From a virus, in the IMG/VR virus record IMGVR_UViG_3300028423_000442, positions 1 to 43,561 of that record: DNA of 43,561 nucleotides, one strand, 5' to 3'. Both the position numbers and the translations under genes were made by a program. This document shows, one piece after another, positions 28,922 through 35,019 of this stretch (within the stretch, counting starts at the first letter, position 1; each line of letters begins with the position of its first letter). A model generated the notes under the pieces. The model had not been told where the DNA came from, made no database searches, and saw nothing but the letters and a program-made list of their open reading frames with translations.

Positions 28922-29382
28922 GCAAGCCAGACTGGAAAAGCGCGCCAGAGTGGGCGCAATGGCTGGCGCAAGACGAGGACGGCGAGTGGTTTTGGTTTGA
29001 AGGTCAGCCAACTGATAAAAGTTGCAGCTGGCAAGATGACGCAAATGGAAAGGTGAGAAGCGCCGGGCTATCTGAAGAAAACGAAACTTGGGCATTTACG
29101 CTTGAAAAGCGCCCTGCCGACCTTGACAGCGCAATCATGACCGAAGAGGAAGAGCAAATGACAGCGGAAGAGCTGCCAAAAAGCAAATACCACCGCGAAA
29201 TCGCCCCCGGCGTATGGGTGGATGTTTACGATGTCCTGCACGCATGGGCCGTACAGAATCCGGCCTTGCAGCACCTCATTAAGAAGGCTTTGCAGCCTGG
29301 CGAGCGGGGACATAAAGACAAGGCTCAGGATATGGACGAAATTGTAGCGTCGGCACTGCGGGCGCGGGAGTTGGAGGGATGA
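28918..29382 (+). CDS. Conserved phage early protein of unknown function
   Basis: A 154-residue protein. The N-terminal half is Trp-rich (DWKSAPEWAQWLAQDEDGEW). The C-terminal half, HREIAPGVWVDVYDVLHAWA then PALQHLIKKALQPGERGHKD, resembles a small domain found in many phage proteins near replication genes (the H-x-KK-x-L-x-x-G-x-RG-x-KD pattern). It overlaps the HTH gene stop and the helicase start. Confidence 0.6.
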   Translation: MSKPDWKSAPEWAQWLAQDEDGEWFWFEGQPTDKSCSWQDDANGKVRSAGLSEENETWAFTLEKRPADLDSAIMTEEEEQMTAEELPKSKYHREIAPGVWVDVYDVLHAWAVQNPALQHLIKKALQPGERGHKDKAQDMDEIVASALRARELEG

Positions 29383-31310
29383 GCGAATATCAGAAATTCA
29401 TCGAGGCGAAGTCATTCCGGCATGTAAACGCTGGCTTCTCTTGCCCTGACGAATTGCCCTATCCGCTTTTCGATTACCAGGAGCCGATTGTCAGATGGGC
29501 GTGCAAGCGAGGCAAGGCGGCTGTATTTGCCGATACCGGACTTGGCAAAACCATCATGCAGTTAGCGTGGGCGGATCAAGTGGCTCAATTTACTAAAGGC
29601 CCGGTTCTGGTTCTGGCACCGCTTGCCGTGTCGAATCAAACGATCAAGGAAGGAGAGAAGTACGGAATTGAAGTGCAGAAAGCGAATCCGGGCGCGCCGA
29701 TGTTTGGTCCGCATATCGTGATCACCAACTATGAGCAGCTGCATAAATTCGATCCTGACGTTTTTCGGGGCATAGTTTTGGATGAGTCCAGCATCCTGAA
29801 AGGCATGGATGGTCGTCGTCGGAAAGAAATAACTGAGTTTGGCCGGTCCATTCCGTATCGATTGAGCTGCACAGCCACTCCGAGCCCTAACGATTTCATG
29901 GAGCTTGGCACGCAGGCGGAGTTTTTGGGAATTATGAGCCAGACTGAAATGCTGGCCATGTTCTTTATCCATGACGGCGGCGATGTGTCGAAGTGGCGGC
30001 TAAAGGGCCACGGAGAGAGCAAGTTCTTCCAATGGCTGGCAACGTGGGCAGTCGTGATACGCAAGCCTGATGATCTGGGATTTGATGGATCGCGCCACCA
30101 CTTGCCGCCGGTTATCTATCACTCCCATGTGGTGGAGACGACGCCGGAAGATTCTCTTTTTGTGGAGCCGGCGCAAGGGCTGCAAGATCGCAATAAGGCC
30201 CGCAAAAACTCCGTTGATGATCGAGTGGCAAAGGCCGCTGAAATCGCCGCGAAAATGGAAGGCCAGGTTTTGATCTGGTGCAACCTGAATGAAGAATCGG
30301 AAAAGCTGGCAAAGGCGATTGATGATGCGGTTGAAGTTAAGGGTAGTGATAAGCCGGAGCATAAAGTTAATGCCGTATTGTGGTTTTCGTGCGATAATGA
30401 TTCGGAGTTAATTTCAAGTTATCCGGGGATAGAATCATGGCTGACCAGCAATACTTCAAAGACTATTACCAAAAAAACAGGGAGAAGCGAATCCAGCAAT
30501 CAAGAGAGTGGCAAGAAAAAAACAAAGAACATCGAAAGGAATACATGCAAAGGTACGCAAAATCAAACAGGGAAAAGTTTAGAAGAACACCAGAACAGCA
30601 AGCAGAATACAACAGAAAAAGAAGGGAGCGATACGCAACAGACCGGCAATACAGGGATCGAGAAAGACAAAAAGTCGCAGAATATCAGCGCGCAAATCCT
30701 GAAAAAAGATTTGCAGATAGGCTTAAAAAATACGGAATCACGCCAGAGCAATATAGATCAATGCTCAAAAGCCAGGGGGGCGGATGCGCAATATGCGGGT
30801 CAGAAGACTCCGGGTGCTCAAAAAAAGAAAGGCTACATGTCGATCACTGCCACGAGACTGGAAGGGTCAGAGGGCTGTTATGCACAAACTGCAATCAAGG
30901 CATCGGAAAATTTAAAGATAACGCCGATAGAATCAGATTGGCAGCAGAATACATTGAAAAAGGTACTGGTTAGTAAGCCCCGCATTTTTGGGTATGGCTT
31001 GAACCTGCAAAACTGCCACCAGATGATATTCGTTGGCCTGTCAGATTCGTGGGAGTCCTACTATCAGGCTATCCGCCGTTGCTGGCGATTCGGGCAAACT
31101 GAACGGGTTCATGTTCACGTAGTGAGCGCCGATACCGAAGGCGCGGTTATCGAGAATATCCAGCGTAAGGATCGCCAGAACCAGCTTCTAGGCGAGCGCA
31201 TGGTTGGCCATATGAAGGCGGCAATGGATAAAGAGATATTCGCCGCATCCACCGAAAAAACAGAATACAACGCAACACAAGCAATGGAGATTCCGGCATG
31301 GCTTCAGTAA
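29379..31310 (+). CDS. SF2 (SNF2/DEAD-like) DNA helicase with a nested endonuclease insertion
   Basis: An open frame of 643 codons. Helicase motifs: Walker A ADTGLGKT (51-58), motif II DESS (135-138), motif III CTATP (164-168), and, after a gap, VLVSKPRIFGYGLNLQNC (529-546) with motif VI QAIRRCWRFGQ. Residues about 340-527 do not look like helicase: they are rich in K, N, Q, S, T and E with no hydrophobic core. In another frame this segment encodes an Endonuclease VII-type protein (30437-30973). Without it the helicase would be about 455 residues, a usual size. It is paired with the methyltransferase that follows. Confidence 0.8.
   Translation: MSEYQKFIEAKSFRHVNAGFSCPDELPYPLFDYQEPIVRWACKRGKAAVFADTGLGKTIMQLAWADQVAQFTKGPVLVLAPLAVSNQTIKEGEKYGIEVQKANPGAPMFGPHIVITNYEQLHKFDPDVFRGIVLDESSILKGMDGRRRKEITEFGRSIPYRLSCTATPSPNDFMELGTQAEFLGIMSQTEMLAMFFIHDGGDVSKWRLKGHGESKFFQWLATWAVVIRKPDDLGFDGSRHHLPPVIYHSHVVETTPEDSLFVEPAQGLQDRNKARKNSVDDRVAKAAEIAAKMEGQVLIWCNLNEESEKLAKAIDDAVEVKGSDKPEHKVNAVLWFSCDNDSELISSYPGIESWLTSNTSKTITKKTGRSESSNQESGKKKTKNIERNTCKGTQNQTGKSLEEHQNSKQNTTEKEGSDTQQTGNTGIEKDKKSQNISAQILKKDLQIGLKNTESRQSNIDQCSKARGADAQYAGQKTPGAQKKKGYMSITATRLEGSEGCYAQTAIKASENLKITPIESDWQQNTLKKVLVSKPRIFGYGLNLQNCHQMIFVGLSDSWESYYQAIRRCWRFGQTERVHVHVVSADTEGAVIENIQRKDRQNQLLGERMVGHMKAAMDKEIFAASTEKTEYNATQAMEIPAWLQ
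30437..30973 (+). CDS. Endonuclease VII-type HNH endonuclease nested inside the helicase gene
   Basis: A 178-residue protein in the +2 frame relative to the helicase. Residues 1-95 are a Lys/Arg/Glu/Gln-rich helix. Residues 97-175 fit Endonuclease_7 (T4 gp49-like): YGITPEQYRSML, CAIC (117-120), HVDHCHETGRVRGLLC (134-149), CNQGIGKF. Zinc ligands are Cys117/120 and Cys149/152; active-site His is in HVDHCH. GGGGAT 8 bases before the ATG can act as ribosome site. The stop is only a few bases inside the returning helicase sequence, so the gene fills nearly the whole insertion. Role: homing endonuclease or resolvase. Confidence 0.9.
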   Translation: MADQQYFKDYYQKNREKRIQQSREWQEKNKEHRKEYMQRYAKSNREKFRRTPEQQAEYNRKRRERYATDRQYRDRERQKVAEYQRANPEKRFADRLKKYGITPEQYRSMLKSQGGGCAICGSEDSGCSKKERLHVDHCHETGRVRGLLCTNCNQGIGKFKDNADRIRLAAEYIEKGTG

Positions 31311-32260
31311 TTGATCAAGTTCACACCAACGACTATGCAGCCTATCACGCAGACACGGTAGAAGTGGCGATGGGCCTGCCTGACGATAGCATTGATTTCA
31401 GCATTTTTTCTCCGCCTTTTGAGTCATTATATACATACAGCAACAGTGACCGAGATATGGGGAACAGCAAGGATTCTGACGAGTTCTGGCGGCAATACCT
31501 GTACCTGATCAAAGAGCAATATCGGGCCATGAAGCCGGGGCGGATCATTGCAATTCACTGCATGAACCTGCCGACCAGCAAACAGAATGACGGCTTTATC
31601 GGTATCCGAGACTTCCGGGGCGAAATCATCCGCACCTATCAGGACGCGGGCTTTATCTATCATTCAGAAGTCTGCATCTGGAAAGATCCAGTGGTTGCTA
31701 TGCAGCGGACCAAGGCACTCGGATTGCTGCACAAGACCATCAAGAAAGATAGCGCCATGAGTCGCATGGGCATTGCTGACTACATGGTTATGATGCGCAA
31801 GCCTGGAGACAATGCAAATCCGGTGAGTGGCGAGTTTAACTATTACGTGGGGGACAACCCGGCCCCCGGATTCAAGCGCCATAAGTGGGATGATGGACGT
31901 GAATGCTGGACAGTCGAGGAAGGTAGCCACAACACCAGCGTTGATGTGTGGCAGCGGTATGCCAGCCCGGTGTGGGATGACATTAACCAAACTGACACAT
32001 TGAACTACCGAGAAGGCCGTGATAGCGATGACGAGCGCCACATTGCCCCATTGCAGCTTGATGTTATTCAGCGTTGTCTGCAGATGTGGAGCAAGCCCGG
32101 CGAAATCGTATGGAGCCCGTTTATGGGTATCGGCAGTGAGGGGTATATGAGCCTGAAAGCTGGCCGGCGATTTATCGGGGCAGAGCTGAAAAAATCATAC
32201 TTCGATCTGGCTATCCGCAACATGGAAGCCGCAAAAGAAACGCAATACGATCTGTTTTAA
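31298..32260 (+). CDS. Site-specific DNA methyltransferase (beta-class, N4/N6)
   Basis: A 320-residue enzyme transferring methyl groups from SAM to an amino group on DNA bases. Catalytic motif IV is SPPF (39-42 region, FSPPFESLYTY), and the SAM-binding motif I comes late: SPFMGIGSEGYMSLKAG then FIGAELKKSYFDLA. Motif IV before motif I is the beta-class order; SPPF favours N4-cytosine, N6-adenine is possible. It starts inside the last codons of the helicase gene; such helicase/methylase pairs recur in phages. It may protect phage DNA. Confidence 0.85.
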   Translation: MASVIDQVHTNDYAAYHADTVEVAMGLPDDSIDFSIFSPPFESLYTYSNSDRDMGNSKDSDEFWRQYLYLIKEQYRAMKPGRIIAIHCMNLPTSKQNDGFIGIRDFRGEIIRTYQDAGFIYHSEVCIWKDPVVAMQRTKALGLLHKTIKKDSAMSRMGIADYMVMMRKPGDNANPVSGEFNYYVGDNPAPGFKRHKWDDGRECWTVEEGSHNTSVDVWQRYASPVWDDINQTDTLNYREGRDSDDERHIAPLQLDVIQRCLQMWSKPGEIVWSPFMGIGSEGYMSLKAGRRFIGAELKKSYFDLAIRNMEAAKETQYDLF

Positions 32261-34898: not shown

Positions 34899-35019
34899 CG
34901 CAGTATCCTGTTTTCCGGTTGTATTTATCACAGGTGTAACAGCAAATGGGCGCATTTACAGCGCCCATCCATGCCGAAACATCCAGCCTATGCGAGCCGT
35001 CTGTTTTCTTGTAGGCCAT
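34822..35019 (-). CDS. Small Cys-rich protein
   Basis: A 65-residue protein: MAYKKTDGSHRLDVS, then CCYTCDKYNRKTGYCDEF and a later CDNWQ. The Cys spacing suggests a metal-binding finger. GGAGAGAGT precedes the ATG at 35019; a longer reading from 35103 lies in the helicase gene. It overlaps both neighbours. Function unknown. Confidence 0.55.
   Translation of the reverse strand: MAYKKTDGSHRLDVSAWMGAVNAPICCYTCDKYNRKTGYCDEFKDQPPEDFRETGCDNWQEGIPF

Follow-up and report, generated by a model that had tools for sequence, protein, structure and literature searches.

An EndoVII-type endonuclease gene overprinted on a phage helicase gene with both reading frames open

A mobile gene within a coding sequence is commonly assumed to harm its host unless it is removed by splicing, of the RNA or of the protein. 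A viral DNA stretch of 43,561 nucleotides (IMG/VR record IMGVR_UViG_3300028423_000442, positions 1 to 43,561; hereafter the window) raises the question of how else a host might be spared: an earlier note, made from the sequence alone, had described a 178-residue endonuclease VII (EndoVII)-type gene lying in another frame inside an SF2 helicase gene that has no stop across it. Is this opening a matter of chance, and is the helicase read straight through? The reading that we favour, with a probability of roughly 0.8, is that a mobile EndoVII-type homing endonuclease gene has been overprinted on the helicase gene, both frames being read and the resulting loop tolerated.

Architecture of the locus

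The open reading frames (ORFs), Pfam and PHROGs agree on the nested arrangement (Table 1). The outer ORF contains DEAD and Helicase_C domains (Pfam and PHROGs), and its structure model resembles Snf2-type motors. The inner ORF matches Endonuclease_7 in Pfam (PF02945, E = 3.7e-25) and endonuclease VII in PHROGs (E = 7e-32), and phmmer aligns it with T4 EndoVII in the PDB (E = 1.3e-4), which is also its best match in a fold search, a weak one (E = 0.024). Membership of the EndoVII family (PF02945) is indicated by the significant family match and by the presence of the conserved cysteine pairs and the DHxH core, and the AlphaFold model of the endonuclease (pLDDT of 89) is that of a folded protein. 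Elsewhere, a nested endonuclease from Rhizobium (L284:3001-3537) has HVDHSH instead of HVDHCH and has thus lost a zinc-binding cysteine, with both frames still open.

Alignment with 37 uninserted relatives places the insert between two conserved helicase segments, as the earlier note had proposed, with boundaries at F336 (ending at 30386) and V529 (starting at 30963), directly before motif V 'VLVSKP'; the net gain is 186 codons relative to the uninserted relatives. Each host codon comprises endonuclease codon positions p2-p3-p1, and the part of the helicase with motifs V-VI is conserved and in frame after the insert. The host-frame stretch is rich in K, T, S, Q and N, and residues 341–524 are predicted to be disordered, both in keeping with the earlier description; in the AlphaFold model the host-frame insert has a pLDDT below 50 within an otherwise confident, intact helicase. 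A second SF2 helicase (ResIII/DEAD/Helicase_C) is encoded by the same phage at 34988–36628 of the window on the minus strand, and its presence could make a loop in the first helicase less costly.

Table 1 Features of the nested locus in the window and positions of related elements in other loci
Feature	Position	Strand	Details
SF2 (Snf2-like) helicase ORF	29379..31310	+	643 aa, no stop, open through the insert
Left co-moved flank, ~60 nt	30327..30386	+	87% identity to the divergent inserted helicase L082, then 45–53%
Insert in helicase frame	30387..30962	+	~192 codons versus 6 in empty genes; polar, predicted disordered
Leader, left boundary to endonuclease start	30387..30436	+	Ribosome site weak
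EndoVII-type homing endonuclease ORF (putative)	30437..30973	+	178 aa, overprinted, other frame
Endonuclease_7 domain, residues 96–175	30722..30961	+	Pfam
Endonuclease stop TAG	30971..30973	+	Arises in another frame within host codons V531-S532 (VLVSKP)
Right co-moved flank, ~60 nt	30963..31022	+	83% identity to L082
N6/N4 DNA methylase gene	31298..32260	+	Overlaps the helicase end; the two form a single fusion in L003 and phage Pacc40 gp60
Leader motif AAACTGGCAAC in other loci	L002:2891, L162:2984, L163:2984, L164:2972, L168:2987, L170:2763, L182:2984
Phlyer intein locus	L528:2217-2978
Keitabear intein locus	L529:514-2901

The endonuclease frame is shut by an upstream stop, about 12 codons before the start in the window and in a related locus (L082) and nearer to it in three others (L002, L003 and L162). 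Because its frame closes so shortly upstream, the endonuclease needs its own start, independent of any distant frameshift. This part of the earlier claim stands, and the GGGGAT ribosome site proposed along with it is weak: the site scores −5.7 kcal/mol, poorer than the median of −7.9 at other starts of this phage, and an equally good score is reached at 25% of all ATGs in the window. A strong Shine–Dalgarno sequence for this gene is not supported.

In T4, the bypass element of gene 60 is associated with a mobile endonuclease, and programmed bypassing or frameshifting might similarly join the helicase halves or make the endonuclease from the helicase start. Such a mechanism is hardly credible here, given that the upstream stop calls for a separate endonuclease start and that bypassing would not select for the open, polar host frame described below. 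A self-splicing intron, of group I or with some unknown ribozyme, that carries the endonuclease, with the helicase mRNA spliced and the open frame a chance effect, would fit an insert located in a conserved motif, and phage introns often carry endonucleases of this class. The endonuclease ORF, however, occupies 537 of the approximately 576 nt of the insert, leaving no room for a ribozyme core outside it; no Rfam match was found at E <= 1 in the window or at the gathering threshold in 15 related loci, and a spliced insert would not explain why the host frame is open and polar in all cases. An intron is therefore very unlikely.

Recurrence in helicases

The earlier note had suspected that similar units recur at this site in other phage helicases, and such units were found. 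A search with the helicase as query returned 78 relatives with a spacer of 3–13 nt at the insertion site, together with two loci (L082 and L083) in which an EndoVII gene, 67% identical, lies at the same place with both frames open. The helicase query carried insert peptide patterns, by which these two loci, and not the other cases, were possibly favoured. Searches with endonuclease queries, which are independent of the host frame, revealed EndoVII genes nested in the helicases of L002, L003, L164–L168, L170, L172, L174 and L182 and, among isolates, in Gordonia phages Malisha and Squiddly; nested copies are also present in bacterial genomes of Rhizobium, Mesorhizobium and Sphingobium. A query with the helicase N terminus, which is blind to the insert, added one further locus (L480), with 2 of 80 helicases inserted and both open.

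The insertions occupy two sites, site A before motif V and site B before motif IV. The nested helicases found come from divergent phages and prophages, and in every one of them the host frame is free of stops over the entire endonuclease; a single relative frame is common to all except L003. Alternate-frame openings over EndoVII genes in L004, L030, L054, L063, L065 and L298 are short, at gene ends or of low complexity, and were not counted as nested. One nested case has an in-frame helicase TAA (L167:3650) 112 nt downstream of the endonuclease, which may represent decay, an error or recoding.

Footprints of homing

The helicases nearest to that of the window (L084 and L155) and to that of L082 (L107) have no insert, and the inserted helicases of the window and L082 lie on separate branches. 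This patchy distribution, with empty sites, is consistent with homing. In the 60 nt on either side of the insert, the window and L082 share the identities given in Table 1, which on the left fall away in the next bins. Compared with its own nearest empty relative, L107, L082 is 47% identical in the adjoining left bin and 63–85% identical farther out. A similar pattern is seen in L448, which carries the L168 element, against the 97%-similar empty helicase L449: identity on the left is 86–97% and declines to 76% at the insert, and on the right it is 47–51% over 200 nt before returning to 87%. These identity profiles mark the flanks as co-conversion tracts, such as double-strand-break repair leaves behind when it copies from an inserted donor, and as looked for at a site occupied by a homing endonuclease. 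Together with the empty relatives, they bear out the earlier suggestion that a mobile endonuclease entered the helicase gene.

Most likely, the endonuclease would cut empty helicase alleles and repair would copy the element in, at a surface loop that precedes motif V of the helicase. Directly before the start codon, a leader with the consensus AAACTGGCAAC is common to seven nested copies at both helicase sites (Table 1); neither 148 freestanding EndoVII genes nor the remainder of the 1.56 Mb searched contain it. Because the leader is shared, the elements at the two sites are kin; it may serve as an initiation signal or form part of the target of the element. A scan of the collection with the motif yielded no new nested case, three of its four matches being already known and the other (L283) unrelated.

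Selection on the open host frame

Stops in the helicase frame of most related insertions, the earlier note held, would mark the opening as a matter of chance. The host frame is open in all 20 nested genes, against 1 of 145 freestanding EndoVII genes (Fisher p = 8e-25), for which 1.4 open in the main frame were expected; 53 freestanding EndoVII genes of similar length have a mean of 7.4 stops, and none is open. When the codons of the window endonuclease were shuffled synonymously, the host frame was open in 1.2% of shuffles. Among 14 nested genes in the main frame, the per-gene probability of an open frame ranged from 0.008 to 0.73 and all 14 are open, giving a product of 9e-16 that is overstated and only indicative because the nested cases partly share ancestry; the freestanding genes provide the sounder comparison. 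In L003, which has the other frame relation, no host-frame stop is present where 8.2 were expected. The count of open frames is unbiased only for the helicases, whose two halves were searched for irrespective of frame, and for the intein family described below, which was retrieved with an endonuclease query. Non-helicase hosts were identified in part by their open frames. The open host frame is not due to chance, which the 145 freestanding controls and the codon shuffles reject.

Nor does a filter at entry suffice. The differences between the window and L082 should have produced 9.2 host-frame stops and produced none (P ~1e-4), and across nested pairs 4–13 stops were expected per pair and none was seen, under a Poisson approximation in which all mutations are equally likely. 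An entry filter alone is rejected by this pair divergence.

Constraint on the amino-acid sequence of the host-frame peptide as such is unsupported. Between the window and L082 the peptide is 44% identical, compared with 67% for the endonuclease, and codon position 2 of the host frame varies within the insert about as freely as helicase third positions; being poorly conserved and free at that position, the exact sequence hardly matters. Its polarity is another matter. At third positions of nested endonucleases where C or T can be chosen, T is avoided and C favoured; at these sites T yields F, L, I, M or V in the host frame and C yields S, P, T or A. Relative to host flanks, the silent-site shift of nested genes averages −0.134, with 19 of 20 values negative; for 152 freestanding genes relative to their neighbours it is +0.059 (Mann–Whitney p = 1.7e-8), and in the intein family it is −0.103 (34 of 48 negative). 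L003 has no such shift, and its frame relation puts that base elsewhere. Correspondingly, the hydropathy of the host-frame inserts in helicases is −0.6 to −1.3, against −0.03 in the same frame of freestanding genes. Were the host-frame peptide not translated, silent-site selection of this kind would be difficult to account for, and it suggests that the peptide is made.

These observations bear on a further alternative, that the insert splits or inactivates the helicase, the second half being separately translated or dead and the open frame reflecting chance or an entry filter. Phage split genes with an endonuclease between the halves exist, for example Aeh1 nrdA, and the stop in L167 falls in the second half. 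A split is nonetheless improbable: it fits neither the open frames of all nested helicases, in view of the stops expected from divergence after insertion, nor a part with motifs V-VI that is conserved and in frame, nor silent-site selection for a polar host peptide.

Terminases, inteins and other hosts

EndoVII genes are nested out of frame in other hosts as well. One lies in a terminase large subunit gene (L258:2815-3318), with TerL_ATPase and TerL_nuclease on either side and the host frame open; an intein was looked for in this terminase and none was found. Another, in a Microvirga lupini contig (L310:2732-3661), lies in a gene with a dATP/dGTP diphosphohydrolase N-terminal domain (PF18909), also open in the host frame.

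A third host is a terminase intein (L316:3-1976; Intein_splicing, E = 8e-15; Terminase_6C) with an out-of-frame EndoVII gene. A search with its endonuclease returned 80 viral loci (L364–L443), 76 of which have EndoVII out of frame within a terminase intein and an open intein–terminase frame; of the remaining four, three (L377, L434 and L439) are cut by contig ends and one (L408) is frameshifted. All 48 distinct representatives of this family are open in the host frame (log10 P = −41, assuming unrelated cases). Its isolates include Mycobacterium phages Phlyer, Chandler and Athena and Gordonia phage Keitabear. The DNA of the Chandler TerL6-f intein is 99.9% identical to that of the Phlyer intein with the hidden EndoVII gene, and this intein splices well in an MBP–intein–GFP reporter (PMC5050341), where the hidden gene was not reported. 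Reading of the host frame across the hidden gene thus yields a working protein in that case. No earlier report of an out-of-frame endonuclease inside an intein was found among the open-licence papers searched.

The presence of the same endonuclease class inside true inteins raises the possibility that the helicase insert is itself an atypical intein that excises itself from the protein. The helicase ORF does not match Intein_splicing, as L316 does as a positive control; nothing of the insert is left over once the endonuclease and its short leader are counted, and the host-frame sequence is poorly conserved. Self-excision is exceedingly unlikely. With no match to Rfam or to Intein_splicing, the unit is neither intron nor intein, as first proposed.

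Discussion

From selection on the host frame and the published intein splicing assay, we infer that the helicase is translated through the insert. In the favoured reading, the endonuclease would be made from its own start codon, in an alternative frame within the helicase message, and helicase ribosomes would pass straight through, producing a loop of about 190 residues, disordered and polar, by which the fold, judging from the structure model, would not be disturbed; helicase activity would be retained. Purifying selection acts unequally on the two frames, on the amino-acid sequence of the endonuclease and, in the host frame, only for a stop-free and hydrophilic reading.

Overprinted homing endonucleases are probably a general third way, beside introns and inteins, of residing in a gene without harming it, in which the host frame is selected at silent sites as a translated, stop-free, polar and disordered linker; the same trick probably gave rise to the terminase intein family. 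The host apparently reads through, and silent-site selection on the parasite gene would render readthrough harmless. The nested genes thereby illustrate dual-frame coding cleanly: the reason for it is clear, and the freestanding copies serve as an internal control. They would account for disordered inserts in phage helicases and terminases, and they predict that a published terminase intein able to splice contains a hidden endonuclease.

The general idea is already known: an out-of-frame endonuclease insertion was reported in 2025 as the ShiLan domain of a mycobacteriophage methylase, with Pacc40 gp60 as a second example (PMC11855218). What is added here is the EndoVII class, insertion at two sites of helicases from many lineages, controlled evidence that both frames are under selection, direct homing footprints and an intein family with its endonuclease out of frame. 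As in the helicase, the ShiLan endonuclease lies in an alternative frame inside the insert, the host frame is open throughout and the stop codon is at the very end of the insert; the two also share a patchy distribution, the lack of an intron or intein and a predicted disordered host-frame loop, and for ShiLan no ribosome-binding site was detected (PMC11855218). The ShiLan endonuclease is reported as HNHc-type with zinc fingers (PMC11855218), and is set apart by this description from the PF02945 enzyme. Its host is a methylase in mycobacteriophages, whereas the hosts described here are helicases, which have insertions at two sites and belong to prophages as well as to phages of several bacterial groups. 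Tests of selection and co-conversion are absent from the ShiLan paper and present here.

Pacc40 gp60 (L530:3102-7127) belongs to the same helicase–methylase family as the window locus (67% and 58% identical stretches to L003) and likewise combines a hidden endonuclease with an open host frame. Its published 'methylase' insertion is actually in the helicase part, at a third site, after 'QRPSDI', and the endonuclease is reported as AP2/HNH-like (PMC11855218), not EndoVII. T4 EndoVII and freestanding phage EndoVII genes (PF02945) are of the same catalytic family as the nested endonuclease; unlike the nested genes, the freestanding ones have stops in their other frames and do not have the leader motif of the seven nested copies. 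The terminase inteins (Phlyer and Chandler TerL6-f) resemble the helicase case in their EndoVII gene, frame relation and open host frame. They differ from it in the fate of the host-frame peptide, which in the terminases is a linker within a self-splicing intein and is removed, whereas in the helicase it would stay.
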